From Zingiber officinale (Eukaryota > Streptophyta > Magnoliopsida > Zingiberales > Zingiberaceae): a DNA stretch of 64,000 nucleotides. A model generated the notes under the pieces. That model was not told the DNA's origin and did not search any database. It saw only the letters and a program-made list of their open reading frames with translations. Numbering within the stretch: position 1 is the first letter of the stretch; every line of letters starts with the position of its first letter. Made by a program: the position numbers and the translations under genes. Shown piece after piece: positions 13,646 to 48,300 of the stretch. The stretch spans positions 49,136,722-49,200,721 of the forward strand of contig NC_056000.1 of the NCBI RefSeq assembly GCF_018446385.1. The letters run 5' to 3'.

Positions 13646-15133
13646 ATGGAAGAGGTTGGATGCCAACTCATGGTAACGCTCTCTCCCGAGGAACTAGAGG
13701 CACTCATTCAGGCACGAGCCGCAAAGATGGTGGAGCAACAACAGAAGGCTTAAGCCGAGAAAATAGTGCAGCAGGCCGCCTCAATTTCTGGAGGCCGAGC
13801 GGCAATGGAGGACTGACCAGAACAATATTCTACCTGGGCTCAGAACAAGGGGCAAACCGGCACGCCAGGGGACGCGCCGGTCGCCCCTATTCCATTCCAT
13901 CGATCATTGTTCCAGACGCCGTCGGAATTGGCCCTAGCCAACCAGGGATCGTCCGATGAAGCACCCGTACGGGACGCCAGAAAGGGGAAGGCACCGCGCG
14001 CGGAGTCATCCCCCAAGCGGGTTAATCGCCAGTTCTCGGAGGCGATCTTGCAAGACCCTCTCCCGAAGCATTATGCTCCAATATCGATCGGGGAGTATAG
14101 TGGTGTGATCGATCCGGACGACTATCTCGGTAAGTTCGATAACACAGCCACTCTTCACCAATACACCGACGGGGTCAAATGCAAGGTTTTCCTTACTACG
14201 TTATCTGGTTTGGCTAAACGCTGGTTCCGGAGGTTGCCGGACGGATCAATTAAGAGCTTTAGAGATTTTCGAACAGCCTTCCTCCATCATTTCGCGAGCA
14301 GCAGGCGCTACCAGAAGACCAACGTCAATCTGTTCGCCATCAAACAAGGTTCGAAGGAGCCACTCCGAGCCTACATCCAGCGCTTCAACCAGGTGGCCAT
14401 GGACATCCCAACGGTCACTTCAGAAACTATGATGAACGTGTTCACACAGGGGCTTGTGGACGGTGATTTCTTCCGCTCGCTCATCAGAAAGCCGCCTCGC
14501 GACTACGACCATATGCTACACAAGGACAATGAGTATATCAACGTAGAGGAAGTGCAAGCGGCCAGAAGGAAGGAAGCACCATCTAAACCACCGGCCTCTG
14601 CCGAGCAGAAGCAACCTACTAGCTACCATCCACCTAGAGGACCTCGGGAGGAAGCAGCCCGGGCTCATCAGCAAGCAAGGTCGCACGTCGTTCAACAAGT
14701 AGCGGCTGATCGACCTAAGCCCAGGGGGAAGGTATGGACTCCAATGTTTTGTTCACTCCATCAGTCAACAACCCACAATACGCACGATTGTCGGAGCCTC
14801 CCCCCAGTCGCTCATCCTACGCCAAGGAACTATCGCCGCCGATCACCTTCACCAGACTGGCGACATCGATACCAGAGCCCTGATCGGCGTGTAGAGAGAG
14901 GATCCCCCGAACGACAACATCATCAGCAGCCCAGGACTCAACCTCGGGCATCGCACGAGCATCCCAGGCCATCCGCTCAGGAGGAAGAGAATAGAAGCAA
15001 CGTGCCCCGAGGAGAAATTAGCATCATCGCTGGTGGACCAACGGGAGGTGACTCCAACAAGGCAGCTCACGATCCATGCGGTTGGCTACAATCAGGAGCG
15101 GGCGAGCGGGCCCGAAATCAGCTTTGGCCCTAG
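13646..15133 (+). pseudogene. Tat gag (two nonsense codons)
   Basis: The frame opens at 13646. It has stops at 13751 (TAA) and about 17 codons later (TGA), then is open to 15133. The capsid-like core carries FDNTATLHQYTDG, FLTTLSGLAKRWFRRLPDGSI, FRTAFLHHFASSRRYQK and LRAYIQRFNQVAM. Compared with the second element (62195 on), a deletion of about 13 bp near 15065 throws the end out of frame with protease. Gag assembles virus-like particles in the cytoplasm. Confidence 0.88.
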
Positions 15134-17064
15134 GGACCTCGAGGGAGTCGAAGTCCCACATGATGACGCCCTCATCATCCGAGCGGTAATAGCTAACTAC
15201 ACTATTCACCGCATCTTTATTGATACAGACAGCTCGGTCAACATAATCTTCCAGAAGGTCTTCGACCAATTGCAAATCGACCGAGCTGAGTTGTTGCCGA
15301 TGACAACCCCCCCTCTACGGGTTCACCGGTAATGAAGTTTTGTCGGTCGGACAGGTCTGGCTGGCTATCTCGCTGGGAGAGGAGCCGCTCAGAAGAACGC
15401 GGACTGCTAACTTTATCGTAGTCAACGCCCTCTCCGCGTACAATGTGATCTTGGGGCGACCGGCTCTCAACGAGTTCCGAGCGGTTGTCTCCACCTTTTG
15501 CCAAAAGGTCAAATTCCCCATAGAAGATCGGGTTAGAGAAGCCCGCGGAGACCAACTAGCAGTCCGGCGATGTTATGTGGAGATGGTCCGAGCTGAAGCA
15601 AATGCTGCTCGGAAGGCACCACGCGTCGAGGTAAATGCTATAACCGAAAAGTCACCTTCTTTAATTTACGAAGAAAAGGAGGAAGTAAAGATCCACCCTG
15701 TCCGACTGGATGCCACTACGTTCATCGCATCCGACCTGGAGCCGAGCCAGAAGGAGAAGCTGATCAGATATCTCCAGCAAAACTGTGACGTCTTCGCTTG
15801 GTTGACCCACGAGTTGCCAGGGGTCTCGCCAAGCGTAGCACAGCACGAACTTCAAGTCCGCCCGGACGCTTGGCCGGTGAAGCAGAGGAAGAGGGACTTC
15901 AGCGCTGAACAGAATGTCATCATCCGCGCTGAAGTTGAGAAGCTTCTGGAGGCCGACCACATACGGGAGATACAATTCTCGAGCTGGCTCGCCAATGTGG
16001 TGTTGGTCTCCAAGCCAGGCAACAAATGGAGAGTCTGCATCGATTTCCGAGATCTAAATAAGGCATGCGCGAAGGATTTTTACCCTCTACCCCGGATCGA
16101 CCAACTGGTAGACTCTACTGCTGGATGCGAGCTGATATGCATGCTGGATGCATATCAGCGCTACCACCAAGTGTCACTTGCCCCGGAAGATCAGGACAAA
16201 GTGAGCTTCGTTACTGCGGACGACACTTACTGTTACAACGTGATGTCGTTCGGACTAAAAAACACCGAAGCCACATACCAGCGGCTAATGAACAAAGTGT
16301 TCCGGGAGCAGATCGGACGCAACTTGTAAGTCTACGTGGAAGATATACTAATCAAGTCACTCCGAGCGACGGATCTTTGTACAAACATAGAGGAAACCTT
16401 CCGAACACTGAGGAGGTATGGAGTCAAGCTGAACCCCCAAAAATGTTTGTTCAGAGCAAAAGACGGGTGCTTCTTGGGATACATCGTGATCGAGCGGGGC
16501 ATAGAGGTGAACCCTAGCAAGGTGAAAGCACTGCAAGACATGCCGCCTCCCAGGAATTTGAGGGAAGTGCAACGCCTCACCGGCCGGATAAAGGCATTGT
16601 CGAGATTCATCTCTAAGACAACCGACCGGAGCTTGCCATTTTTCAAGATCTTGCGCCGAGCCACAAAGTTCCAATGGGACGAGGAGTGCAATCAGGCGTT
16701 CGAGGAGCTGAAGATGTACCTGAATTCTTTACTTGTGTTGGCTAAGCCGAACGTAGGCGAGCCACTCCGTATATACCTGTCCTCCACCGAGCATGCTGTC
16801 GGCTCGGCGTTGGTGAAAGGAAGCGAAGAAGAGCAGCCCGTGTATTTCCTGAGCCACATTTTAAAAGATGTCGAGTCTCGCTATACTGGCCTCGAGAAGC
16901 TTGCGTTCGCTTTAGTCCTCGCCGCTCGGAGACTCCGCCCTTATTTCTTGGCACATACAATCATCGTTATGACGAATAGCCCGTTGGGAAGAGTGCTCCT
17001 AAATCCAGAGGCGTCAGGGCGGCTCATCAAATGGACGACAGATCACAGTGAATTCGACATCTAG
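15090..17064 (+). pseudogene. Tat protease, reverse transcriptase and first RNase H
   Basis: The protease active site reads DTDSS at about 15226 where DTGSS is expected (the second element has DTGSS). A one-base C insertion in the C-run near 15310 shifts the frame. The RT follows (VCIDFRDLNKA near 16033), with a stop at 16327 and YVED instead of YVDD at about 16333-16344. RNase H (FLSHILKDVESRYTGLEKLAF) ends at a stop at 17062. At least two catalytic positions are changed, so the enzyme would be inactive even if read through. Confidence 0.9.
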
Positions 17065-24616: not shown

Positions 24617-25939
24617 CTAATTAATGGAGCTTGAGGAAGGCTGCCAATATAATCGGACGGAAGTCTTGTCTGTGGAAAAGTCAATTGAATTGGGATAATT
24701 CAGAAAATGTCTGAACCATTCTCGTTCAAAAAGCATTGGTTCTCCTGGAATCTCTATCAGACCGTAGTCGTCATCCGTGATATATATAGAATTAGGCGTC
24801 AAATGTACTGGAAAATCATAAGGAGAAAAGCCAAGTGGGTCGCGGCCGCCCAAGAAGATGACCAAGTCTCCCAAGTCCTTGGCTTCTTCCCTCAGCATCG
24901 AGGCTTCCTTATCCACCACCGCACTGTATCCGCTGTCTGAGAAGATAATAAACTCTTCCATGTCCATCGTTTTTTCTACTCTTAGTCTTTTAGGTGGCTT
25001 CTCCTCCTCCTCCTCATCTATCACCCTGTAAACCTTGACAGAGATGGTCTCCCAATAATTTTCAAATCTCTCCCTCCAAATACTCAAAAGATCCCCTCGA
25101 GGAGTCTCGAAAAAGTAATGGTAGTGTAGTTCGCTACGATCGACCACTCTAAATCTGGGCATCTCGTCATGTTGAATTCGGCGAGCCGCCTCGTCCAAGT
25201 CACAAACATACACTACCGAGTGTAGTGTGCTCATATACAGTTTCCCTTTATGGAAGGCTGTATTTTCAATAAAATTGGGGTGGTTGCGTAACTCCAACCA
25301 TTTCTTATCGTCGCCGGAGCTGATGAAAAAGATTCTCCCGGGAGAATGTTGGATAACCGCGACTGTGTAGCCATCTCCGAGCGACGGATCAGCAGATAGG
25401 ATTGCTTTGAGGCGAAACTGTTCTAGACAATTGATATAACTGTAACCACACCGTACCTGCTCTTCTTCGTTCATTAGTATCTTGAAGCCGATTAGGCGCC
25501 CTGCACTGTCGCGGATGGATTGGGTGTGCTCGTAGGGGAAGACGACGCCAGGGAGGTCAATCTGTGCGCCGATGATCGGGTTCAGCAGTTGAACCCGTAG
25601 GCGGGCGTCCATCGTGATGATCCAACCGTGAGCAGAGCCGAGGAACAATCGGTCGGTTATGGGAGGGTCCGGGACGGGGATGGTGTACTCCCTTGCCTCG
25701 TCCAAGGCGTAGAAGGTGACGACGACGGATGGATTGTCGTCGTTGTTAAGCACGAGCCAGGGGCTCTGCCCGCGGAACTTAACGCATCTGCCGCGCGCGG
25801 ACAGATCGCCGACGGCAGATGACCACGAAGCACAGACGGCGGCCGACCGGAGAAATTGAGGAAGGGAGAGTTTGGAGAAGATGAGGGAGAAGAGATCCAG
25901 CGGCAGATCAGACCAGCCGCCGACAGTAGTCATGGTCAT
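24617..25939 (-). CDS. F-box protein, DUF295 family (intact)
   Basis: A single-exon protein of 440 aa. I start at the internal Met (MTMTTVGGWSDLPLDLF), because it lies just before the F-box and a similar start is used in the pseudogene. An upstream in-frame Met at 26017 would add 26 residues. The F-box spans residues 8-50. The DUF295 region follows: RGQSPWLVL, GSAHGWIITMDARL, VIQHSPGRIFFIS, FHKGKLYMSTL and FETPRGDLLSIWRE. It ends with a conserved LTPNSIYITDDD near residue 400. An acidic EEEEEKPPKR linker is at about 320. F-box proteins bind SKP1 in SCF ubiquitin ligases; DUF295 is the likely substrate side, function unknown. Two decayed relatives lie to the left, so this is the surviving member of the cluster. 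Confidence 0.9.
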   Translation of the reverse strand: MTMTTVGGWSDLPLDLFSLIFSKLSLPQFLRSAAVCASWSSAVGDLSARGRCVKFRGQSPWLVLNNDDNPSVVVTFYALDEAREYTIPVPDPPITDRLFLGSAHGWIITMDARLRVQLLNPIIGAQIDLPGVVFPYEHTQSIRDSAGRLIGFKILMNEEEQVRCGYSYINCLEQFRLKAILSADPSLGDGYTVAVIQHSPGRIFFISSGDDKKWLELRNHPNFIENTAFHKGKLYMSTLHSVVYVCDLDEAARRIQHDEMPRFRVVDRSELHYHYFFETPRGDLLSIWRERFENYWETISVKVYRVIDEEEEEKPPKRLRVEKTMDMEEFIIFSDSGYSAVVDKEASMLREEAKDLGDLVIFLGGRDPLGFSPYDFPVHLTPNSIYITDDDYGLIEIPGEPMLFEREWFRHFLNYPNSIDFSTDKTSVRLYWQPSSSSIN

Positions 25940-26269
25940 GGGAGAATCCACCAGAGATATATGAATGTGACGGCGATAACTCAGACGACGACTGCTTTCC
26001 CCGTATTTTATAATCATGTTTCAGGGTTCTTCGAGTATTTCTTTCCAAATTTTACTCGTAATCCTGATTTTTTTCCTTGAATTCCCGATCACATGTGGTA
26101 TTTTATGGAAACAAAGTTGATAAAATTCAGACAATATCTGTCTTAATTTTAGAAACAAGATTAAACAATAATTTTAAGTAAAAGCGGAAAGAAGAATTTA
26201 TATGATTACTTAATTTAATTATAATATTTTTCACAATGACACAGTACATAGAGGAGGGGCTCGATAAGG

Positions 26270-30899: not shown

Positions 30900-31910
30900 T
30901 TACGGTTTTATTTGCAAAGTCATCGATCAATTTTTCACAATTGAATTTTTTTAAAAACTCACTCTCAATCGAAATCATAGTTAATGCATTCAATCTTGTT
31001 TGGGTCATGGTTCATCTCAAATAAGATTTCAACTACTTCAATTTAGAAAAACTTCTTTCTGCAAATGTGACAGTCACCGAAATAATTAATAATATCTTGT
31101 ATGCAATGAATGAATTCGGGAAACGATTCATTCTTTACAAAAAAAAATAGTATTTCACTTGCTATTTTTATTTCCTTTGGTAGAATATGTTGTATCATTT
31201 TCAGTTCTTGATATAAGTCATCTCCATCCAAATCTGAAACATCTTGTCATGTATCCTTTTTTCTTTGTACTTTCCTTTCAAGATTCTTGCAACGAGCTTT
31301 CAAGTCCTCATTAATCAATGAACTCAACTTTTCAACAGTGAAAAGAAATCCAAAAAGATCTTCATATTCCTCATATTACTCAAACCTTTTCTTCAATGAT
31401 CCAATTGCTTGATCTACTATAAACAAGAAATAATGAACTCTAAAAGCTTCGTCGACAGATCCTTGAGGTAGTTTTGAAGACTTACATGTAACCTCATCAA
31501 AATGTCTTTTTTATATATATATCTTTTTTAAGGAAAAACAGGATCAATCTCTATTGTTGAAGCAAGTTCTTTTGTTGTATTGATAGCTAGTCCAAATCCA
31601 GATTCTCTATACTCTTTAAAAGAAGCAATTAACCCCTTGACCTTGGTCATAGCAACGTCAATAATCATGTTTTCAGATTGTAAGCCTTTGCTAACAATAT
31701 TAATTTTATCCAATATGTCATACCAAATATTTCCAAGTTCAAATATTGCTAAAGACTTAGTTTTACTTCTTATTTTAGAGTTAGTGCATTTTTCTTCTGC
31801 AACTTGAAGTAAAACTTCTATGATTTGTTGAGCTTGAAGTACCACTGCTTTTACACTTTCGGTACAACTTCCTCATCGAGTGATTGACAATGTCTTGAGA
31901 GTTAAACCTT
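30900..31910 (-). pseudogene. hAT transposase, C-terminal part
   Basis: Resumes after the insertion with KGLTLKTLSITR, the counterpart of the conserved LTLKPLSQTRWE motif, but with a stop in place of W. It then reads VVLQAQQIIEVLLQVAEEK and FGLAINTTKELAST, has stops near 31526 and further on, and ends in remnants of the hAT dimerisation domain (SFPEFIHCIQDIINYF at about 31100). Multiple stops make it non-functional. Confidence 0.75.
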
Positions 31911-31915
31911 TTACC

Positions 31916-33365
31916 TGTTAGGACCAAAAGTAGCTAGAGGGGGGGGTGAATAGCTCGTCGCGTTCGCTCGGTGCTCGGCGTTGCTTGTTCCTTCAAAGAT
32001 GTGCAGCGGAAAATACAGAAACAAACACACAACGCTAACACAGTTGGTTTTACTTGGTATCCACCTCACAAGAGGTGACTAATCCAAGGATCCACACCAA
32101 CACACACACCCTCCACTAAATAAAACTCTCCTTTATGGTAACTACCAAGGGCGGAGAAGCCCTACAAGACTCAATACAAGAAGAGAGGGAAAGGATACAA
32201 GAAGTACAAGCTTACAAGCTTACAATGAGTACAAAACCCTAACCCTAGCTTCTCTTCTTGGCTTTGATCCGCCTCTTCCAAGATCCTTCAAGAACTGGCG
32301 ATCTGATCTTTGAGAGCGCTGTGGAGGAGCTGGCGAGTAATCTGGAGTTAATCGGAGAAGCGATACCGCAGCCATCGAATGCCTGCAGCTATAAACGATG
32401 CCAACGGTCGGATCCCGATCGATTCGAATGTTCCCAATCGATCGGGGAGGCTTTGGATCGATCCACGGATCGATCCAGAGCGCCTGCTCGAAAGCGCTGG
32501 ATCGATCCACGGATCGATCCAGCTTATCGCGCGAGCAAGCCCCCAATCGATCCATCGATCGATTGGGACCTCCGATCGATCCACGGATCGATCCGAGGCT
32601 CTCTGGCCGTCTAGATCGATCCACCGATCGATCCAGAGCCCGGATTGATCCATCGATCGATCCAAAGACTTGATTTTGTCCAAAACCAAGTCCCAAACCT
32701 CCCAAACCAACATCCGGTCAACCTTGACTGTTGGTATGTCATGCCTAGCATCTAGTCACCCTTGACCTGCTAGGACTCCTTTACCAAGTGTCCCACAATC
32801 CTTTGACCCACTTGACTTTTCTCTCTCAAGTATCCGGTCAATCCTTCGACCTACTTGGACTTTTCTTTCATGCCAAGTATCCACCAATCCTTTGACCTAC
32901 TTGGATTTTCCAACAACCTGATGTCCGATCATCCTTGATCCATCCGGATTTTCCCTTGCCCGGCTTCACTCACTGTGACTTTCACCTAGCTTCACTCACT
33001 AGGTTTTCTATCCGCCTAGCTTCACCACTAGGACTTTCACCGCTTCACTCACCAGATTTCCATCCGCCTAGCTTCACTCACTAGGACTTTCACCCAGCTT
33101 CACTCACCAGATTTCCATCCGCCTCGCTTCACTCACGTGACTTTTTCCTCTCGGCTTCACTCACCGTGACTTCTCATACTGCCTAGCTTCACCACTAGGT
33201 CTTTCATTTTGCCTAACATCCCGCTTAGGACTTACCAAGTATCCAACAACCTTGACCTACTTGACTCTTCTTCAATCAATATCTTATTGTCAAACATCTA
33301 AACTCAAACCAAGACTCAGCTTGGTTACCCAGGTCAACCTTGACCTGAGGGATATTGCACCAACA
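31916..33365 (-). repeat. 3' LTR of the gag-only element
   Basis: Contains a dense cluster of inverted GGATCGATCC units (about 32450-32665) and an array of about 28-bp and 56-bp units based on cttcactcactagg / cttcactcaccag (about 32960-33215). It is nearly the same as 37649-39184 but shorter by indels in these repeats. Confidence 0.88.
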
Positions 33366-35788
33366 ATCTCCCCCTTTTTGATGTTTGACAATACCACAAT
33401 AACACTTACAATCCCATATGTAAGTTAGGCTAATCCCATAGCCTCCTTCTTCATGCCACTAGGTAATGAAAGCATAAATTAAGCTCTTCATTCTCCACTA
33501 AGAGGGCAAACTCCCTCTAGGTAATGAAAGCCTAACTTACTCCCTTTCATGAGTCCTTTCATTCTCCCCCTATGACCTTCCCATAGGTAATGAAAGCCTA
33601 AACTTAACCATACATTCTCCCCCTATTGGCACACATCAACCCATCGTTGGACACACATCAACCTATGCTCCAATTCTGGGCACACTTCAACAAATCCATT
33701 TGTTGAAGACTCTCCCCCTGAAGAGTTGCTCATCGTTGTTCACAACATCACTCGTTGTGATCAACATGATAATGAAGGTCCCATACCCTTCATTTATCCT
33801 TAACTTCTCCCTCAATGTAGACAACTGCCCAACTTTGAGCATTATCTACCACTTGAGTGTCCACTTGAAATAATGAGGATATCCACTCCCCATTTCTCCC
33901 CATTTCAAGTTTAAATGCTCAACTTTGAGCAAGTTCACAACAGAAGGTTAACCACCTTCCAAGGTTCATGAAAAATAATTTTCATGTCTTTAAAGAGTCC
34001 CTCCCCCTAAAGACATGGTGGTAACTTCTGTCATTGCACCAACAATGACTTGGAATCCCTAACACATTAGGAAACCCAAATTTTAGAAGTTTTGAGGTTC
34101 AAATATTCAAAATTTGAAACAACCTCAACCTAAACTTCTACTTAGTCTTTGTTAGCCAATCCATCCTTGTTTTCAACATGAAAACACCCTTTGTATGTAT
34201 ACAAATGTATTTAAGGGGTTTGGAATGGTTACCTATACTAAAATAGGTTCAAAGATGCTGAAATCAGGCCTTCCCAGCCAAAACCAGCAACTTGGATCGA
34301 TTGAAGTTGGGTTCCAATCGATTGAACCTTTCTGAATCGATCCACTGATCGATTCAGACTACCTGGATCGATCGGCTGATCGATCCAGCGAGCTTCTGCT
34401 CGCGGGAATTGCCGTTTGAATCGATCCATGGATCGATTCAGGAACTCCAATCGATCCATGGATCGATCGGAGCTCTGATAGTTGCTGAAATTCCATTTCA
34501 GTCAACTTCAGAAACCCCTAGAAAATTCTACAAAAATCCAAAAATTATGAAATTTCGTGTAGACATTATTTAGGGCGTTTACTATCACGGAAAAATAGTT
34601 TTCTATGAAAATACTTCATATTTTCAAAGATTGACACAAACTTGAGAACTTGCAAAAACTTTAGTGTTTTATTCAAGTTTGTGTCTAACTATTCAATGGT
34701 GATTACTATCAAAAGATAGCCTTCACCAAGGTTTTCCAAAAATATTTTTTTTTTAAAACATTTTCAAAACCAATATCCCATCACCTTCCTTGGGCTTAAT
34801 GCACATGACTTGTACATTAGCTTTCCCAATGATGGGAAAACACATAACTATGTGTTTTGATGAACCTAAAAACTCAAAAGAATGCACTAAATCAATATGT
34901 TGAGTTTTGTTCATCATCCTAACATCTCACTTGTATCTATTGTGGACAAAACACATACAAGTCACCTCATAGTCTTTGTGAGATGTAGATTTTGGTTTTT
35001 GCCCTAATCTAGGGATCATGCATATTTGTCTAGGCATTTTAGAAATGTTAGACATCCACCTAGGATGTCACTTGTCAATAAGTGTCGTTAAATGCCATTT
35101 GTCCTTAATTACAAGGAATTAAACTTAATGCATGATTATGTTATGGCATACATCAAAAGAAAATAATTTTCAAAAGAAAATATCCTATTACTACATGATA
35201 TATGAATGTCATGACATGGTATTTTTGGATTTTTCATAATAAAACATGAATGCAAAAATAGACATGATGTCATGACATATGATGGGCAAACAATCATGGC
35301 AAGGTTTAGCATAAATAAAATATACCTAGATTAACTATCTAAGTATCCTTAAAGTCTTAGCTAAACTTACACCTTAAACCTAGATTGCCCTAAAATGCTA
35401 CAAGAGAATGCCAAAGCCTAAATTTGGCATTTCTAATTTCCTTGATTTAATGTATGCCAATTGAAAATAAACATGTCCTCAAATGTTGGCATATTCCATT
35501 TTTCCACAAGAGTAGCACTTTTTAAATTAAGGCTTAGTTTGCCTTTAATTTCCTAAGAACATACCAAAATCCCAACTTGGTAGTTCTTGTGTTTTCTCAA
35601 ATTTGTGTCACTTTAAAATAAAATCAATACTTCTCCAATTTGGCACATTTTACTCTTTCAAGGAGTAAATAATAATTCCATTTCATTTTCAAAGGTTAAC
35701 AAAAACCTTGAAAATGCTCCTTGAGTGTCAATTTCCTCAAAGTTGGGTTAACTATCCTTCTAATCGGAGTTGACACTCTCTAACCCAT
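33366..35788 (-). other. Non-coding interior where pol would be expected
   Basis: No coding frame of note. On the minus strand, AGGGGGAGA-type purine tracts occur at about 33370 (the polypurine tract next to the LTR), 33565, 33620, 33715 and 34015. A second palindrome cluster of GATCGATC type lies at 34290-34475. The text is otherwise AT-rich with dispersed ctaggtaatgaaagcc repeats (33465-33600). Confidence 0.7.
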
Positions 35789-37573
35789 CTATGGGGTAGA
35801 GAAGATGCTCCTAGGAACCCAACACCTATTGGTGCTCCTTGGATGCTCTAGGTACTCACTAGGGATAACTTCCCTAGATACCTTCCTAGTGACCTTGTTG
35901 GGCTTCTTAGAAGCCTTGGTCACACTTTCTAGGTCAACTCTAGGGATAGCCTCCCTTGTGACCTTGTTAGTGACTTTCTTAGACTTCTTAGAAGTCTTAG
36001 TCACTTTGGTTGCAAAGATACTCTTAGGGATGACTTCCCTAGTATTCTTGGCTTGACCACTAGACCTAGGGTTTGTTCCATAACTATATGGAACTCTATG
36101 GTAAGAGGGCACATCCTTCTTAGCCTTTGGTTTGTATCCCAAACCTCTATGGCCATTAGATGACCTTTGTGCTCCTAGACCTAGGCTATGCTCATTTTGC
36201 CCTTTTAGGATATTTTCCATCCTTTTTAGGGTCCTTTCCATTTTATCAAGCCTTGACCTCAAGACTTGATTTTCTATCACTAAGTCCTTAGTATTTGATC
36301 CATGAGCATTTTTGTTTCTAGGCTTGTATCTTAAATCCTTAGAGTTTTCGCCTAGATTTTTACCTACAATCCTAGCCTTAGGTGTAGTAGTTTTAGCATG
36401 AAAAGGTATATGTTTTTCTTTAACGATATCATGCTTTCTATTTTCATGGTAAATAGCATTAAAATGATAAAAATTTGACCTAGCATGCATTTTACCATTT
36501 TGCAAGGGAATAGGCTCAATGAAAGTTACCTTCCTTTTTACCTTGGAGGCTCCCCCTTGACTAGTGCCTCCTTGAGCCTTGACCATCTTCTTCCCCTTGG
36601 GGCATTGACTTCGGTAATGCCCTTTTTGGTTGCAAGAAAAACACACAATGTGCTCCTTGCTCCTTTTTATTCCGGGGATGGTCTCCTTGGGCTTCTCCTT
36701 GCCCTTTTGTGCCACTTGGCCCTTCTTCTTGGCCAAGTTGGGACACTTGCTCTTATAGTGCCCATGTTCCCTACACTCAAAACATATTATATGATTTTTA
36801 TTTTTAATTGAAACATTTATACCTTCTTGTATAGGGATGGCACTTGCTCCTCCATTTGATATTTCTTGAATTTCAGAGGTGGCACCATCTTCTTCTTCTT
36901 CACTTGACCCGGATGTAGAAGCTTCTCCTTCTTCTTGATCCGGCGTCACCAAGGATTGCTCCCCCTCAATCCTAGAGGTGGAGGCTTCATCATCTTGAAT
37001 ATGAAACAAGGAGTATGCTCCCTCCTTGTTCCCTTCGTTGCATTCCCTTGAGGATGAAGCTTCTTGGATCTCCTCTTCTTCGGAGGTTGAGCATCTCTCA
37101 ACCTCGGAGTCCTCCTCTTGGTCTTGATCCAATGAGTCACCCTCTCTGGATTCTTCATGATCTTGTATAGTGGAGGGGATCTCTTCATGAAGCTTAGCCA
37201 ATTTGCTCCAAAGTTCATTTGCATCTTCAAATTCTCCAATTTTGCAAAGAATGGTGCTTGGCAATAAATTGACCAAAAGCTTGGTCACTTTGTCATTTGC
37301 CTCGCACCTTTGGACTTGTTCCGGGCTCCATTTGCTTTTCTTTAGAACTTTGCCCTTTGAATTTCTTGGAGCCTCAAAACCTTCCATGAGAGCAAACCAT
37401 TGCTCTATCTCCATCATAAGAAAATTTTCGATTCTTGATTTCCAAGAATCAAAGCTTGTAGATGAATATGGTGGAGCCACCCTTGTGTCAAATCCAAGTC
37501 CATCTTGGAATTGCATCTTGAAGTTGAGCTTGATAGAATCTTGAACTTGAAGAATTTGCTCCAACTTCTTCAC
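35789..37573 (-). CDS. Retrotransposon Gag (complete, 594 aa)
   Basis: A complete frame. The N-terminal half resembles the DUF4219/UBN2 gag domain of copia elements (SFDSWKSRIENFL, then ANELWSKLAKLHEE, about residues 40-135). A long acidic Glu/Ser-rich linker is at 140-255. Two zinc knuckles follow, each C-x2-C-x4-H-x4-C (CFECREHGHYKSKC at about 268, CFSCNQKGHYRSQC at about 315). A coiled-coil-like stretch is near 440 (RLDKMERTLKRMENIL). It ends CWVPRSIFSTP; WVP(K/R) is normally just before the protease in related Gag-Pol proteins. Gag packages element RNA into cytoplasmic particles. Retention of the frame without pol suggests selection or youth. Confidence 0.88.
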   Translation of the reverse strand: MKKLEQILQVQDSIKLNFKMQFQDGLGFDTRVAPPYSSTSFDSWKSRIENFLMMEIEQWFALMEGFEAPRNSKGKVLKKSKWSPEQVQRCEANDKVTKLLVNLLPSTILCKIGEFEDANELWSKLAKLHEEIPSTIQDHEESREGDSLDQDQEEDSEVERCSTSEEEEIQEASSSRECNEGNKEGAYSLFHIQDDEASTSRIEGEQSLVTPDQEEGEASTSGSSEEEEDGATSEIQEISNGGASAIPIQEGINVSIKNKNHIICFECREHGHYKSKCPNLAKKKGQVAQKGKEKPKETIPGIKRSKEHIVCFSCNQKGHYRSQCPKGKKMVKAQGGTSQGGASKVKRKVTFIEPIPLQNGKMHARSNFYHFNAIYHENRKHDIVKEKHIPFHAKTTTPKARIVGKNLGENSKDLRYKPRNKNAHGSNTKDLVIENQVLRSRLDKMERTLKRMENILKGQNEHSLGLGAQRSSNGHRGLGYKPKAKKDVPSYHRVPYSYGTNPRSSGQAKNTREVIPKSIFATKVTKTSKKSKKVTNKVTREAIPRVDLESVTKASKKPNKVTRKVSREVIPSEYLEHPRSTNRCWVPRSIFSTP

Positions 37574-37634
37574 CCTCTAGCTTTTCTTGTTATGCTTGAC
37601 CCTTCCGGCGATGATTCCGGTGAAGAGCGGCCTT

Positions 37635-37646
37635 GCTCTGATACCA
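37635..37646 (-). other. Initiator-Met primer binding site of the gag-only element
   Basis: The plus strand reads gctctgatacca, the exact complement of TGGTATCAGAGC, 2 bp from the 5' LTR. Confidence 0.9.
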
Positions 37647-37648
37647 CT

Positions 37649-39184
37649 TGTTAGGACCAAAAGTAGCTAGAGGGGGGGGGTGAATAGCTCGTCGCGTTCG
37701 CTCGGTGCTCGGCGTTGCTTGTTCCTTCAAAGATGTGCAGCGGAAAATACAGAAACAAACACACAACGCTAACACGGTTGGTTTTACTTGGTATCCACCT
37801 CACAAGAGGTGACTAATCCAAGGATCCACACCAACACACACACCCTCCACTAAATAAAACTCTCCTTTATGGTAACTACCAAGGGCGGAGAAGCCCTACA
37901 AGACTCAATACAAGAAGAGAGGGAAAGGATACAAGAAGTACAAGCTTACAAGCTTACAATGAGTACAAAACCCTAACCCTAGCTTCTCTTCTTGGCTTTG
38001 ATCCGCCTCTTGACTTGAAGGGCTTCCAAGATCCTTCAAGAACTGGCGATCTGAGCTTTGTGAGCGCTGTGGAGGAGTTGACGAGAGCTCTGGAGTGAAT
38101 CGGAGAAGAGATACCGCAGCCATCGAAACCCTGCAGCTATAAACGATGCCAACGGTCAGATCCCGATCGATTCGAATGTTCCCAATCGATCGGGGAGGCT
38201 TTGGATCGATCCACGGATCGATCCAGCGCCTATCGCGGAACTCACCGGATCGATCCACGGATCGATCCGGATCGCTGGATCTTCCCCAATCGATCCATCG
38301 ATCGATTGGGACCTCGATCGATCCACGGATCGATCCGCAGGCTCGTCGCTTGACAAGTTCGGATCGATCCATCGATCGATTCAGAGCTCGGATCGATCCA
38401 TCGATCGATCCAAAGACTTGATTTTGTCCAAAACCAAGTCTCAAACCTCCCAAACCAACATCCGGTCAACCTTGACTGTTGGTATGTCATGCCTAGCATC
38501 TAGTCACCCTTGACCGCTAGGACTCCCTTACCAAGTGTCCGGTCAATCCTTTGACCCACTTAGACTTTTCTCTCCGTGCAAGTATCCGGTCAATCCCTTC
38601 GACCTACTTGGACTTTTCTTTCATGCCAAGTATCCAACAATCCTTTGACCTACTTGATTCCTCGCACCAGATGTCCGATCATCCTCGATCCATCTGGATT
38701 TTCCTTGCCTGGCTTCACTCACCGTGACTTTCACCTAGCTTCACTCACTAGGGTTTTCCATCTGCCTAGCTTCACTCACTAGGACTTTCACCTGGCTTCA
38801 CTCACCAGGATTTCCATCTGCCTAGCTTCACTCACTAGGACTTTCACCTGGCTTCACTCACCAGGATTTCCATCTGCCTAGCTTCACTCACTAGGACTTT
38901 CACCTAGCTTCACTCACCAGGATTTCCATCTGCCTGGCTTCACTCACCAGGACTTTTCTTCTGCCTGGCTTCACTCACCAGGACTTTCATACTGCCTAGC
39001 TTCACTCACTAGGTCTTTCATTTTGCCTAACATCCCAGTTAGGACTTCCCAGTCAAGTATCCAGTCAACCTTGACCTACTTGACTCTTCTTCAATCAATA
39101 TCTTATTGTCAAACATCTAAACTCAAACCAAGACTCAGCTTGGTTACCCAGGTCAACCTTGACCTGAGGGATATTGCACCAACA
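37649..39184 (-). repeat. 5' LTR of the gag-only element
   Basis: A 1536-bp LTR with a palindrome cluster at 38205-38415 and a cttcactcac(t/c)agg array at 38700-39010 that is longer than in the 3' LTR. On the minus strand it ends in GGTCCTAACA. Confidence 0.88.
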
Positions 39185-39189
39185 TTACC

Positions 39190-40700
39190 GTCACATGATC
39201 TATCAAAATCTTCCACCACTTTGTAGAATGAGAAAATATTGTATAAATATGTTGTACTACTCCAAAAAAGTCTTTCACTTTTCCACAGGAATTTGCAATA
39301 TCACAAAGTGTTAAATTCAAACAATGACAACCACATGGAGTACATAATGCTCTAGGATTTATATCCAATAATTTTTTTTGTACGCCTTGGTGTCTCCCTT
39401 TCATATTTGCCCCATTATCATATCCCTGCCCTCTCACATTATCAATATCAATATCAAAACTTTTCAATACATTTTGTGGTTCTTCAAACAACTCTTGTCC
39501 TATTGTATCACCCACTTTTAAAAATTCCAAAAAGTATTCTTCTACTTTCATTGGACTTGAAGAAACATCAACACATCTTATAACCAAAGTCATTTGCGCT
39601 TGGTTACTAACATCATGAGTGCAATCAAGTATTACAGAAAAGAACTTAGCTTTTTTAATGTTTTTAAAAATAGAACTCTTGATTTGAGAAGCTAACAAGC
39701 ATATCAATTCATTCTGAATTTTGTGGCTAAGATAATGATGATATGTATTTCTGTCAATATGGTTCTTCATCACTGTGTCCCACTCAGCAATCATCTCAAC
39801 AACAGCTATAAAATTTCCATTGTGATCATCATAAAGTTTCTCATTACTATCACGAAATGCTATATTTTGTTTAGCCAAAAATTTCACAAGTGAAATTAAT
39901 CGGTGTAATACCTTCCTCCAATGCTCTTTTGCCTTCTTGATTTGATCTTGAATAGCATGATCAATTGTTGTACCCTTCATTAACCTGATATGCAACTCAG
40001 ACCAACTAGCATAATAATTGATATGCTCAATACTTGTCTCATGTTCTTTAAGTCTGCTACTAACATGCCCCCAATCACAATATCCCTCATTTGCTAGTTG
40101 ACTTGGTTGAGGCCTCCTTTTAAACAACTTGCAACAAAAACAAAATACTTTATCAAATGCTTTTGAATAGACCGACCAATCTCTATGGTGGTTTTGACCA
40201 TTTGGCAAAATCCAAGTATAGAAATCTGAAGAGAATCGTCTATTTGATCTATCTTGGGACCTTTCCCTGTTAATACATCTCTTATAAAGCCATTTTCTAC
40301 TAATTGATCCTTCCACTTGGGATCTAAATTCTCCCAATTTTTAGGATAAAAAATGTCAAGTGGAATCGATGAACTTGGTTCTTCATTCACTACATTAATA
40401 GCATCATCATCACTTTCAGAATAATTATTTTCAAAGTCTAAGTCATCACTACTTTCATTGCCTTCAATCTCATTTACATCTCCCTTTATATCATTTTCAA
40501 ATGGCTAATCCTTCATGTAATTCATTACATTTGTTCTCTTGTTTTTCTTCATTAACCAACTCTTCAAGTGATGAATTTTTCGATTCTTTGACAGTAAATC
40601 TGTCAATTGCCCCTCTTTGAGACTCAATAAATTCTTCAACTCTTTTTATTTTTTTTTTCCACTTATCATGCCCTGATAGATACTTCCTAGTATCAAACAT
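39190..40700 (-). pseudogene. hAT/TTF-type transposase, N-terminal part
   Basis: The start is probably 40700 (MFDTRKYLSG, then IESQRGAIDRF). A frameshift lies near 40250 (after DQIDDSLQ) and a stop lies near 40498. The main frame from 40337 has the TTF zinc finger (KVFCFCCKLF, then W..HVSSRLKEHE, about residues 60-105). The DUF4371 core follows (FFSVILDCTHDVSNQAQMTLVIRCVD, then GQGYDNGANMKG). It ends at IDHVT, where the retroelement inserted. Such transposases bind DNA through the zinc finger and cut with an RNase H-like core. Confidence 0.8.
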
Positions 40701-40740: not shown

Positions 40741-43457
40741 TAACATGGTGTGTGGTGTCACACAGAAGATCATATTATCGGTTCCTTATAAATTATAAAT
40801 AGTAGCTCACAACCAGATTGAGACAAATCATTGGAACAGTTGTAGTGTAATTTGGTATTAGTTTGTCTTGACTATAAAATTACACTAGTACACTATGTGT
40901 GTATTGAGCAGGACCGTTTGAGGTTGTTTGATTTGTACTGACTACATAAAAGAACAGAACCTCTGTTATTATGGATGTGCGTCCTCTTAATCCCTATATA
41001 ATAATAAGCATGTATACTTAGTATTTATTTTTTTTAACTTATCAATGGGTGAGATTTATTCGTTAAATCAATAGGCCCGATGAGTTGGGAAATAGTGTTG
41101 GTGCAATATCCCTCAGGTCAAGGTTGACCTGGGTAACCAAGCTGAGTCTTGGTTTGGGTTTAGATGTTTGACAATAAAATATTGATTGAAGAAGAGTCAA
41201 GTAGGTCAAGGTTGACTGGATACTTGACTGGGAAGTCCTAACTGGGATGTTAGGCAAAATGAAAGACCTAGTGAGTGAAGCCAGGCAGAAGGAAGTCCTA
41301 GTGAGTGAAGCTAGGCAGATGGAAATCCTGGTGAGTGAAGCCAGGTGAAAGTCCTAGTGAGTGAAGCTAGGCAGATGGAAATCCTGGTGAGTGAAGTCAG
41401 GTGAAAGCCCTAGTGAGTGAAGCTAGGCAGATGGAAAACCCTAGTGAGTGAAGCTAGGTGAAAGTCCTGGTGAGTGAAGCCAGGCAAGGGAAAATCCAGA
41501 TGGATCAAGGATGATCGGACATCTGGTGCTGGGAAGTCCAAGTAGGTCAAAGGATTGACTGGATACTTGGCATGAAAGAAAAGTCCAAGTAGGTCAAAGG
41601 GATTGACCGGATACTTGGCACAGAGAAAAGTCCAAGTGGGTCAAAGGGATTGACCGGACACTTGGTAAGGGAGTCCTAGCAGGTTAAGGGAGTGACTAGA
41701 TGCTAGGCATGACATACCAACAGGTCAAGGTTGATCGGATGATGGTTTGGGAGGTTTGGGACTTGGTTTTGGACAAAAATCAAGTGCTGGATCGATCGCT
41801 GATCGATCAGCTCGATCATCGGATCGATCCGCACTGCGAACAGAGAGCCTCCGGATCGATCCGTGGATCGATTCAGAGGTCCCAATCGATCGCTGGATCG
41901 ATTGGGACGCGGCCGCTTCGCGATAGCGCTGGATCGATCCGTGGATCGATCCAAGCCTTTCCGAGCAATAGACTGGATCGATCCGTGGATCGATCCAAAG
42001 CCTCCCGATCGATTGGGAATATTCGAATCGATCGGGATCCGATAGCTGCAGGCGTTGATGGCTGCGGCATGGCTTCTCGATTTCATCTCAGATCTTGCCA
42101 GTTCCTCCACAGCACTCTCAAAGATCAGATCGCCAGTTCTTGAAGGATCTTGGAAGCTTTCCAAGTCAAGAGGCGGATCAAAGGCAAGAAGAGAAGCTAG
42201 GGTTAGGGTTTTCTGTACTCATTGTAAGCTTTGCGCTTGTATTTTGTTTCCCTTTCCTTTCTTCTTGTACGGAGAGTCTTGTAGGGCTTCTCCGCCCTCG
42301 GTAGTTACCGAAAAGGAGTGTTTTCATAGTGGAGGGTGCGTGCGTGGTGTGGATCCTTGGACTAGTCACCTCTTGTGAGGTGGATACCAAGTAAACCAAC
42401 CGTGTTAGCGTTGTTGTATTTGTTTCTGTATTTTCCGCTGCACATCTTTGAAGGAACAAGTAACGCCGAGCACCGAGCGAACGCGACGAGCTATTCACCC
42501 CCCCCCCCCCCCTCTAGCTACTTTTGGTCCTAACAAATAGTACTGTTTATATGGTGTGTTGTTGATTATAGAAGAAATTTGTGTCCTAATTATTTAGATT
42601 GATGATGTCCCCTTGAGGAGCTTATAAGATTATCATGTAAATTCTGCAGGTGGAATTAGTCAGAAATGATAATAAAGTTGAGTGTTACTACTATTGGAAT
42701 CAGATGTTAATTAATTGAGTTGTTAGTAACTCATTTAATTAACGAGCATACGATATCTTAAACACAGAGAGATTAACACACTCATGATAAGAAGGAACTC
42801 ATATTGTAATATGGGATTGGTGCGGTAGTTTAATAATAACCCTTTAGTGTTATGGGTTATTATTGATGGACTTAAGTTGAGTGTTCGGGCCGAGCACAGG
42901 AAGCCCAAGCTCATCAGGAGGCCTAAACCAATTTCTCATCTAGGTTCCTGTTGTAGCCTCTATATAAAGTCTTGCATCCACCCATCCACGAGTAGTTGTT
43001 GATGGTTGGTTTTCGGCGCCACCTCCATCTCTTCTCCTAGGGTCGGCGACACCTCTCTTTTCTTAGGGTCGACGACACCTCTTCTTTTCCTAGGGTCGGC
43101 TCCTCTCTTCCTTGCTAGGATCGGCTCCTCTCTTCCTTGCTAGGGGTCGGTGCCTCCTCCTTGCTTAGGGTCGACACCTCCTCTAGCTTTCTTTTGCGGG
43201 TGGCCGTTTGGAAAAGAAGAAGAAGAGGAGAAAATGTCCCTTCCTAGCTATTCTCTTGGTGGTCGGCAGTTTGGAAACAACGAAGGGAAATGTGTTTGTC
43301 ATCTTGGTAGATCATCGCCCACATGACGTCTAAGAATAGGAGAGAAATACAGCAGAAGATCAAAAGGTCTTTAGCTACAAAGGAAAGGTACAACTAGTTC
43401 TTTAATTTCGCTGCGTAGTTAGTTTAGTTTTCTTTGTATCGATTTTGAATACCAACA
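40741..43457 (+). mobile_element. Large copia-type LTR fragment, split by a solo LTR
   Basis: Sequence from taacatggtgtgtggtgtc to gaataccaaca looks like one long LTR of a common plant copia family: ataaaagaacagaacctc, gatgatgtccccttgagg, and a tctatataaag TATA at 42958. It is interrupted by 41096-42535. Downstream of the TATA is a minisatellite of about 30 bp (cctagggtcggcgacacctc-like units, 43020-43190). The left boundary abuts the hAT remnant and may be a truncation. The stretch 43458-43770 has no recognised content. Confidence 0.65.
41096..42535 (+). mobile_element. Solo LTR of the gag-only family, inverted
   Basis: Starts TGTTGGTGCAATATCC and ends GGTCCTAACA, i.e. the LTR of 31916-39184 in opposite orientation. 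AATAG flanks both sides (41091-41095 and 42536-42540). It contains the cttcactcac array (41260-41490, complement) and a palindrome cluster (41786-42035). A solo LTR with an intact duplication arises by recombination between the two LTRs of one element. Confidence 0.92.
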
Positions 43458-45702: not shown

Positions 45703-47701
45703 TCAAAGATCAACAATGTGATCCTTCTTTGCAGCACGAGCACCTACAAAGTCGACGAAAATTAGGAATGGTTAGACATCATGGAAACAAGTTCCTTTTC
45801 ATTTTGCTCACTATGTCGGATAAAATTGAGTTGTCACCCAAATCATCGTGGAGAAAAAACAGGTAACCAACCGTAACTGCAAAGTAAAAGAAGAAACACA
45901 AAGAAAATGGACGGAAATAAATTAGGCTCAACACAGTTAACAAGTCATAGTTCCACATGAGAATAGTGATTTTTACAGTTATTACCTATACCTTAAAATG
46001 CCATATGAGTTTTCTCTCATATTAAAAACAAGTATATTATTTGAAGTTTAAACAACTATAAGCTTTTAGAATCCAGTGTTCAACTATCATGTTTGCAACT
46101 GTAAAAAATCAATTTCATTTCACGCTAAGGTTGTAATCCGATCAATAACTTACCAAAACATGTCGCCTCTAACATGAATTAACAATGATAATACAATGTC
46201 TTTCAGATGTTCATTTCTATACATAAATAGCTAGAGAAAAAATCATCAGCATAGACTAGTGACAAAAGAAACATAAAATTCAAGCAATGATCTTGACTGT
46301 AGTGCAAATATATTCAATATGTACAATCATGCCTCTTTTAGGTCTTAAATATGGATATCAGTCTCGAAATACATATGGGTAATAAGAGAATAAAATTTTA
46401 ATAATGCCTAGAGCTAGCAGGATTGGAAATGGAAATGACCACCACTGAAACATTTGCACAGCACTAATAGTTAAATAAGAAAACAAACTTTGGCGTGTAT
46501 TAACTAGAATAAACTACTTAAAACTGTGGAAGCCAGTGAATTATGATGTATCCTGAACTAACTCATAGTACAAGAAACACCTAGCAAACTATGAAACCTC
46601 ACAAAATGAGTAACACCTACTAAAATGCTTTCCAGAATACGCCTGAAGTGCCCAGACAACTGAATTAAATTTGGTGAGACTACAAGAATCCACAATGTTA
46701 AATATTGCACATCATACAGAAGAGTGCAAATTCATAACCTAAAAAAGGGGGGTCTAAAGATGTTAATATGGACATGCAAAAGCTAGTTGATATTTTCTAA
46801 AAGTGATCTTCTTTATGTAACTGAATATAACTAATTTGACAAGAGACACTTCAAAAAACTAAGTAAAAAATTATGGGCATAGAGAAAAATGTAATGTGAT
46901 AAACAAAATCAGACCTTCAATTTTTGTGATTTTAGCTGAGTGATCAGCAGATTTTGCAACTCCATTTCCACATCCAAAAGATCTAGCAGCAGGAGTCCCA
47001 ATGCAATGCAAATTGTCAATCTCACAGACTCGGAGATCTTGACTGCTATAAGAACCATTTTCTCCAAAAGTCTTCCCTTGTATATCTGGATAGAGACAAG
47101 ACACCTGATCATCGCAACGGAAGCCACATGAGTTTAGAACCTGAGCATCAGCTAGCATGTTTGATTGGGTCACGTTATAAGTAAAATCCCCGCTCGCTTT
47201 CACCTGTTTCTGATAAGGAAAACATCCAATCTCTCCATCTATGCGCCCCCTTAGATCCACAAGCAAACATCTGAGCCTCGTAACCTCAGCTTCAAGAGCA
47301 GCTTGATTTTGAAGCCTCTTCATGAGTTGCTGGTTAACAGCTCTTAGTTGAGCAACCTCTTCCTCCAAGGATGCTGCATGTGCCTTCTTCTTCTCCCTAT
47401 ACTTCCGAACAGCCTCTCTGTTACCACAAGATCTTTTTTTTGATGAAGTTCCCTTCTCCACTGACTCAGCAGTCTCATCAGGAGAAGCTGAGACGATTTT
47501 GGTGTGCGCATGGAAACAAGTATGGGTGTGAGAGAGGTCCGGTCCCGGCGGGTTGCAAGTGTGGGTGTGGGTGCATGTATGGCTATCATTGAAGATGTTG
47601 TCAAAAAAACTATCCATGGAGCAGTTGCTAGGAAGATCTTCACCACCGTTGGGCCCAGAGAAGACCTCGGGATTAGAGAAATCGAGGTCCCCTTCGTCCA
47701 T
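45703..47701 (-). CDS. bZIP19/23: Group F bZIP transcription factor, zinc-deficiency regulator type
   Basis: I predict two coding exons, complement 46915-47701 and 45703-45743, giving 275 aa. Exon 1 ends at a GAAG|GT donor. Exon 2 follows a TTTGTAG acceptor and adds ARAAKKDHIVDL, in keeping with the ARAA ending of related proteins. I choose the Met at 47701 (MDEGDLDF) over 47719. The Cys/His-rich zinc-sensor motif is at residues 41-67 (HTCTHTHTCNPPGPD, then SHTHTCFHAHTK). The basic region is at 94-110 (N-x7-R: NREAVRKYR) and the leucine zipper at about 113-150. In Arabidopsis bZIP19 and bZIP23, zinc bound to this motif keeps the factor inactive. Under zinc shortage it acts in the nucleus to switch on ZIP transporters and nicotianamine synthases. 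The intron is 1171 bp. Confidence 0.9.
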
Positions 47702-48300
47702 AATCACAAACGCGAGCAATATAGTCTACCTAAATAAGCAGAAAGATCGTAAGATAGTTCAGTGACTTAATCTTGACGAATGTTACCTTCAAGGATCCAA
47801 AAAAGTTCAAAATTCCGGAAACAAACAAGAAGACTTCAAGCACAAGTAAGAAAAGCAAAATTTTGTCGGAAACATTATTATATGTAAGGGTCAAGCACGA
47901 CGCATTCGATAAATAGTTCGATCAATCACAAAACATACCGACTGTGAGGCAGTTAAGGCGAGAAAAGAAAAGGAAACGTTAAACAGAGAACAACAGATAA
48001 GAACAAAGAATTGAACGACCGGAAGCCAGAGAAGTACCTCAAAATTAGGGGCGTTGTTCAGAAGACGATCCGATCACCACGGCAGAGGAACAGCGCCTGT
48101 GCAGCATCTGGGTGCGCTCCTTTCGAAATCTCAGATCATGCAAATCAAGACGAGATTTTGGAAGGGAACAACTGGAAATTAACGAGATCCGGACTGGAAT
48201 CGATCGGAACCCTAGAGAAAGAGACGCAAAACAGGGAAACTTCGGCGAAACCACACGGGAGGAAATAATGAGACCCGAGCGGAGAGTTGTGGCTGTAGAG
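47702..48300 (-). promoter_or_regulatory. Probable 5' UTR and 5' UTR intron of the bZIP gene
   Basis: On the minus strand a candidate acceptor (cttatttag) lies about 35 bp before the start codon, and a candidate donor (GAG|GTACTT) lies near 48043. This implies a first non-coding exon at about 48043-48300 and a 5' UTR intron of about 0.3 kb. Short open frames here are not convincing. Transcript data would be needed to fix the ends. Confidence 0.45.

Follow-up and report, generated by a model that had tools for sequence, protein, structure and literature searches.

A gag-only LTR retrotransposon with Sirevirus cis signals in the genome of ginger

The DNA analysed here is a stretch of 64,000 nucleotides from ginger, Zingiber officinale (contig NC_056000.1, positions 49,136,722 to 49,200,721 of the forward strand), which is referred to below as the window. 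It holds a retrotransposon with long terminal repeats (LTRs), 7,269 bp long, which occupies positions 31916-39184 on the minus strand and has GGTAA at both of its outer ends. The 5' LTR (1536 bp, 37649-39184) and the 3' LTR (1450 bp, 31916-33365) both run from TGTTGG to CTAACA, and the two copies of the GGTAA target site duplication (TSD) are found at 39185-39189 on the 5' side and at 31911-31915 on the 3' side. Between the LTRs lie a single gag reading frame and, directly after it, a 2423-bp linker of Sirevirus type (33366-35788) with no pol. Sireviruses are a plant-specific genus of Ty1/copia LTR retrotransposons (PMC2829016). The third LTR of the family within the window is a solo LTR on the plus strand (41096-42535), flanked by a TSD of its own, AATAG. 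A chance open reading frame (ORF) or chance repeats are ruled out by the zinc-knuckle match of the gag product and by the TSDs, which flank the element and the solo LTR alike.

Several cis signals connect the element to the Sireviruses as these are described in PMC2829016. At the junction of the 5' LTR with the primer-binding site (PBS; 37635-37648), the terminal CA is followed by AGTGG and then by TATCAGAGC (Met tRNA), which fits the published Sirevirus arrangement CA/A(T/G)TGG/TATCAGAGC. At the other end of the internal region, the last polypurine tract (PPT) octamer, AGGGGGAG, is found exactly 10 bp from the 3' LTR and is followed by AT/TG, the attachment site (octamer plus AT, 33366-33375); Sireviruses are described with an octamer at just this distance from the 3' LTR and AT/TG after it. 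Four more copies of the octamer precede it on the minus strand, at 34001-34008, 33712-33719, 33617-33624 and 33564-33571, bringing the number in the linker to five, compared with 0.024 expected from mononucleotide shuffles. Four of the five are located within 0.36 kb of the 3' LTR; published Sirevirus linkers have four on average, mostly less than 0.5 kb from the 3' LTR. The terminal PPT is bordered by the left arm of an inverted repeat (33376-33393), the right arm of which (33285-33302) lies 64-81 bp inside the 3' LTR. The two arms are complementary at 17 of 18 positions, and the match of the 17-nucleotide arm was reached in none of 5000 arm shuffles. The right arm starts 64 bp inside the LTR, compared with a published average of 28 bp. 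At 2.42 kb the linker is of ordinary Sirevirus length, the published range being 0.52-3.96 kb. The preliminary description of this DNA had regarded the same stretch as 2.4 kb of non-coding DNA that had replaced pol, a view that does not agree with the Sirevirus linker signals which it carries, spaced as published. Three copies of a 37-nucleotide repeat beginning TAGGTAATGAAAGC (plus strand) are also found at 33460-33620, close to the last PPT octamers, the later copies being 68% and 81% identical to the first.

The LTRs carry further signals of this kind. Runs of C are present at 37672-37680 in the 5' LTR and at 31939-31946 in the 3' LTR, and in all three LTRs of the family the run ends 23 bp from the LTR end; of the published motif of roughly 19 bp, the comparison covers the C run and its distance. 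This polyC-rich integrase signal is reported from 17 of 21 Sireviruses, at a distance of about 21 bp (PMC2829016). Palindromic boxes, reported from the LTRs of 13 of the 21 Sireviruses (PMC2829016), form clusters of six in the 5' LTR (38205-38409, upstream of a TTTATAG sequence), five in the 3' LTR (32457-32632), five in the solo LTR (41791-41994) and four in the linker (34336-34467), where two ATCGAT cores are separated by 4-6 nucleotides. All 20 such boxes in the window belong to this family. The ratio of observed to expected CpG is 1.34-1.75 at LTR positions 751-1050 and 0.42-0.58 elsewhere in the three LTRs; within the linker it is 1.09 in the box region and 0.13 outside it. Between the 5' and the 3' LTR the boxes differ at 4 of 132 sites and the spacers between them at 33 of 71. 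Box complementarity extends about 5 bp past the ATCGAT core (33/40 at distances 1-2, a value that 2 of 5000 re-pairings reached, and 36/60 at distances 3-5, which 11 of 5000 reached) and is absent at 6-10 bp (32/100, reached by 2533 of 5000). Independence of these counts cannot be assumed, since the 20 boxes share a common relationship. At the TATA-like site, which both LTRs of the element keep, 16 bp are missing from the solo LTR.

The absence of a recognisable pol, noted in the preliminary description, is confirmed. With stop codons read as X, none of the six frames of the 2,423 bp past gag matches a Pfam family at E<=1, and degenerate remnants of pol in this stretch are rejected on that ground. 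Patterns for protease, reverse transcriptase and RNase H motifs found no match in the three minus-strand frames past gag, and a loose GHxxxL-type pattern matched twice. Each frame of the 2.4 kb contains 44-62 stops.

The end of gag has a structure of its own. In a 26-nucleotide hairpin (35777-35802; 11+4+11, with 10 of 11 pairs formed), the UAG stop codon takes up all but one base of the 4-nucleotide loop, and a hairpin centred on the stop in this way arises in 16 of 3000 dinucleotide shuffles. The 211 nucleotides around the gag end (35640-35850) fold with a z score of -5.9, which was reached in none of 200 shuffles; in the predicted fold, two further hairpins directly follow the one at the stop. 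Sireviruses with pol in the +1 frame are described as having a 27-nucleotide motif with an 11-bp stem and a 4-nucleotide loop at the gag/pol boundary (PMC5009743). The gag-stop hairpin resembles that motif as described, and the resemblance is a likeness and not proof. Because the stop is situated in a hairpin, the Gag end gives no evidence of a cut and does not support the excision of pol at a precise boundary that the preliminary description had proposed. The stop does follow WVPR, as had been stated. The "related polyproteins" to which this ending had been compared are absent from the window, where a tblastn search with Gag at E<=10 returned the self match only; that WVP(K/R) is the motif preceding protease is our assumption. 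The Gag end at WVPR may be native. An origin of the pol loss from spliced gag RNA, that is, from a retrocopy similar to the shGAG transcripts discussed below, has been considered as well. Just past the gag stop there is also a 9-bp inverted repeat (GAGTGTCAA/TTGACACTC), which was rejected as a boundary signal: arms of at least 9 bp occur in 24 of 300 mononucleotide shuffles.

The gag frame (35789-37573, minus strand) is open for 594 codons and begins at GTG. As its first ATG is residue 20, the product in a eukaryote would have 575 amino acids (35789-37516). The 594-codon frame had been described as an intact Gag; its length in codons is correct, but the protein from the first ATG is shorter, and the copia capsid is matched only in part. 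The two zinc knuckles that had been noticed are found by Pfam as two zf-CCHC stretches (E=3.5e-6, 27.3 bits compared with a cut-off of 20.8). Reading of the translation places the first CCHC knuckle at residues 264-277 (36743-36784) and the second at residues 311-324 (36602-36643; Pfam stretch 310-326). The copia capsid profile Retrotran_gag_2 stays below its cut-off of 27, with 14.5 bits for the whole protein and 17.9 bits for the N-terminal piece, and of its 172 positions only 29-75 and 28-75, respectively, are covered. For residues 131-260 the Pfam search found nothing relevant, with one WD40 match at E=2.3. A sequence search of the PDB with Gag found eight sequences at E<=1 (best 0.0037), all of them matching the zinc-knuckle region only. 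Other features of the protein are an acidic stretch directly after 'ELWSKLAKLHEE' and, at about residues 428-462 (36188-36292), a heptad pattern of hydrophobic residues that, by a simple count made with no control, agrees with a coiled coil reported from Gag of Sireviruses (PMC2829016).

The C-terminal half of the capsid has probably been lost from this Gag, as judged from the profile match, made with no full-length copia Gag as control. The protein is about 85 residues shorter than the mean Sirevirus gag of 660 amino acids (PMC2829016), a difference near the 97 unmatched profile positions past position 75; gag length is reported to differ greatly among Sirevirus families (PMC9073684). Alternatively, the unmatched half may have diverged beyond recognition. 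The knuckles suggest that Gag may bind RNA. Gag may not be able to build particles alone, as it shows no recognisable match to the C-terminal half of the copia capsid profile. With over half of that profile unmatched, it is doubtful that the element supplies a particle protein of its own, as had been proposed earlier.

The element sits in what is probably a decaying DNA transposon. Upstream of the 5' LTR (region 39190-40337) an open frame matches DUF4371 (E=1.1e-20), which we take to be a mark of hAT-type transposases. When the flanks are joined with a single TSD, this frame runs across the insertion site and reaches a stop 13 codons on; the frame around the insertion also has stops of its own downstream. 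In the downstream flank (31528-31910), the piece at 31528-31845 resembles the continuation of the frame by eye, and it has no Pfam match at E<=0.001. The matching TSDs and the flanks that rejoin into one reading frame indicate a clean insertion.

The two LTRs of the element form a mosaic. At their two ends they differ at 1 of 481 aligned sites, compared with 92 of 958 (9.6%) in the middle (Fisher p=5e-16), where there are also many small gaps. With the repeat arrays removed, the middle still differs at 27 of 456 sites (p=4e-8 against the ends), which rejects alignment error in the arrays as the source of the mosaic. Recombination between two elements, one giving the 5' half and the other the 3' half, is not favoured, as the TSD is the same on both sides and the flanks rejoin one frame. 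Between the 5' LTR and the solo LTR, 38 of 492 sites differ at the ends, 107 of 920 in the whole middle and 51 of 441 in the unique middle (ends compared with unique middle, p=0.057). Both comparisons show conservation of the first 119 bp, with two differences from the solo LTR and none within the element. The R/U5 end, in contrast, has 36 differences in 373 sites from the solo LTR and only 1 in 362 within the element, and at least this end is therefore not simply slow-evolving.

Since the LTR ends differ at a single site, the insertion is probably recent. With the grass rate given in PMC7251063 (1.3e-8 substitutions per site per year), the ends date it to about 0.08 million years ago, with an upper limit of 0.45 million years. 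The favoured explanation of the mosaic is a young insertion in which conversion by another member of the family has overwritten the LTR middle. According to PMC7251063, conversion is possible in 25% of LTR pairs and is commoner within an element than between elements. The latter favours the possible alternative of an old element whose ends have been homogenised; an assembly error is another possible source of the mosaic. The survival of an open gag was simulated with 3000 frames per setting. The frame stayed open in 72% of cases at K=0.0021, in 16% at K=0.012, the highest value that the LTR ends allow, and in none at K=0.05 or 0.10, with an indel rate drawn from the repeat-rich LTR middle that is probably too high; with stop codons alone, survival was 93%, 66%, 17% and 4%, respectively.

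By combining these observations, it is possible to propose what the element is. It keeps the PBS junction, the PPT set, the attachment site, the PPT-flanking repeat, the polyC run and the palindromic boxes. We regard it, with reasonable though limited confidence, as a deletion derivative of a Sirevirus, a non-autonomous element of the TR-GAG type that has lost pol and probably env; the assignment is based on cis signals and not on reverse transcriptase/RNase H phylogeny, the formal test, which needs the pol that the element lacks. The loss of env is probable because boxes in the linker go with envelope-bearing Sireviruses, being present in all nine envelope-containing Sireviruses with boxes and in none of the four without an envelope (PMC2829016), and because only about 0.33 kb separates the last linker box from the first octamer. 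An env gene would probably once have stood between the linker boxes and the octamers. The element would be transcribed from its own 5' LTR, and an autonomous Sirevirus reading the same PBS, PPT and attachment sites would provide the enzymes, and probably the Gag, with which its RNA is packaged and reverse-transcribed. The TR-GAG seen to transpose in Arabidopsis and RLC_Giselle of barley, both discussed below, are precedents for such a mode. The ginger element would have integrated at this locus already devoid of pol.

A number of observations weigh against this interpretation. Two extra AGGGGGAG octamers are located within gag, compared with 0.3 per element outside the linker in published Sireviruses (PMC2829016). 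The core of the boxes is ATCGAT and the published CGG-CCG core is absent, the published exception to that core being ACAATCGATTGT in Tnd-1; in the 3' LTR the boxes begin about 734 bp in, outside the published start at 200-400 bp (PMC2829016). Sireviruses have a conserved TATA box shortly after the box cluster, two of the 21 being without one (PMC2829016), but the TATA-like TTTATAG departs from the consensus cTATAA/TAT/AAg, the only such pattern is TTTATAGC at position 1042 of the 5' LTR, and it is absent from the solo LTR. Hairpins of a size similar to that at the gag stop are no rarity among shuffles (0.98 per 600 nucleotides with loops of 3-6); what is unusual is solely that this one is centred on the stop. 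The second UAG lies 9 nucleotides past the gag stop and in the gag frame, compared with 10 nucleotides and a +1 pol frame in the published arrangement. The LTR middle, taken by itself, implies an old insertion of about 4 million years. Lastly, the window contains neither a second internal copy nor an autonomous partner, and the loss of pol before insertion is only inferred.

These last points bear on another possibility, that a pol-bearing Sirevirus inserted here and later lost pol (and env) in place. Such one-off decay, which we consider possible and clearly less likely than the arrival of an element already without pol, would leave the TSD, the LTRs and the PBS and PPT looking the same. It also agrees with the presence of a single internal copy in the window, the other family copy being a solo LTR, itself a product of DNA loss. 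On the other hand, LTR ends that differ at 1 of 481 sites leave little time for it (about 0.08 million years, at most about 0.45), and the gag stop with its hairpin, the linker boxes and all five PPT octamers are in place, with no recognisable fragment of pol; neither argument is decisive. The cis signals for a Sirevirus reverse transcriptase and integrase are equally what would be kept in a two-component family, in which a separate relative provides pol and each kind of element, gag-only or pol-bearing, needs the other. The barley element RLC_Giselle is said to depend on Inga in a comparable way (PMC5738225). We think such mutual dependence very improbable here, as no partner is seen within the window and a Gag without a recognisable C-terminal capsid half would bring a partner little gain.

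The open gag frame might also be read as a host gene, domesticated and kept by selection. The argument for this would be that the frame is open despite the 9.6% divergence of the LTR middle, given that at K=0.10 none of the 3000 simulated frames stayed open (4% with stops alone). However, with intact LTRs, TSD, PBS and PPT and nearly identical LTR ends, a young element explains an open frame with no need of selection; domestication is the least likely of the explanations considered. Highly speculative, too, is the idea of a trans-dominant brake, by which the gag-only lineage would hold back its autonomous partner, its capsid-truncated Gag entering, riding in and limiting the partner's particles. 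By analogy with truncated Gag in yeast, the retained RNA-binding knuckles and N-terminal part of the capsid could conceivably permit this, although the chance that they do so appears slight. According to PMC7765848 (2020), a truncated-Gag brake was not then known from any plant.

As a probable deletion derivative of a Sirevirus, the element can be compared with several known systems. It shares with the SIRE1, Opie and Maximus lineage, as described in PMC2829016, the PBS junction, the multiple octamers, the AT/TG attachment site, the PPT-flanking inverted repeat, the polyC run, the palindromic boxes in LTR and linker, and the lengths of the LTR and linker; the hairpin at its gag end is a likeness to the one described in PMC5009743. 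It differs in having no pol and no env that could be found, in its overall length (7.27 kb compared with an average of 10.55 kb), in its box core and TATA sequence, and in a gag of 575 instead of 660 amino acids. TR-GAG elements (Chaparro et al. 2015, known via citing papers) consist of two LTRs around one gag ORF (PMC6022998, PMC8704663), and the comparison with them in the preliminary description is anatomically right: the ginger element has two LTRs, a single gag ORF and no pol, with the GAG domain below the Pfam cut-off and the knuckles above it. It is less unusual than had been suggested, as TR-GAGs are reported from many plant species and one, in Arabidopsis, transposed in ddm1 (PMC8704663). 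That element, AT5TE33540 of ATCOPIA63, has a 562-residue GAG described as full-length (PMC8704663) and was seen to move, whereas the ginger Gag is matched to the capsid only in part and its mobility is inferred. A gag-only Sirevirus of TR-GAG anatomy is a further example of a published type of element and not a new system.

RLC_Giselle of barley, which according to PMC5738225 has a potentially intact gag without reverse transcriptase and integrase, is a close parallel, being likewise a copia element tied to a Sirevirus; an element named Inga is listed among the Sireviruses of PMC2829016. Giselle belongs to another family and probably to another species, and it is likened here by its description. 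The autonomous Inga of barley (RLC_Inga) and the Inga of the Sirevirus survey are presumably the same family. BARE-2, LARD and TRIM elements are also non-autonomous LTR elements (PMC6022998, PMC8704663), but BARE-2 has no Gag (cited title 'Life without GAG', PMC8704663) and LARD and TRIM have no coding domain (PMC6022998), whereas the ginger element has gag. The shGAG transcripts of EVD and of sunflower Varan and Tyran (PMC12252137, PMC7730604) resemble it in that Gag is made without pol, and the sunflower shGAG proteins are also described as lacking the capsid domain; these are, however, RNA isoforms, and the ginger element is a DNA copy without pol.

Elsewhere in the window there are a broken copia-type pol (RVT_2 and gag_pre-integrs; 7151-9798), two Retrotrans_gag elements, presumably of gypsy type (13907-16329, adjoined by RVT_1, and 62195-63334), an F-box/KIB1-4 gene (24617-26017) and a bZIP gene (46871-47719). 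Searches for relatives gave 30 matches to a Gag pattern in viral contigs and 68 pattern matches in prokaryote genome contigs, none of which was confirmed; the LTR start pattern had no match in the viral contigs, and a megablast search of plasmids with the 3' LTR found none either.

The ginger element shows that what looks like "gag plus non-coding DNA" can be assigned to Sirevirus from its cis signals alone, with no pol sequence needed. The parts that it has retained as a non-autonomous Sirevirus are the PBS, the PPT array, the LTR ends, the boxes and a gag with its stop hairpin. Its mosaic LTR pair is a warning for dating, the middle and the ends giving such different ages for one insertion. 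If other copies without pol exist, they would offer an experiment of nature on the amount of Gag required from a passenger element.

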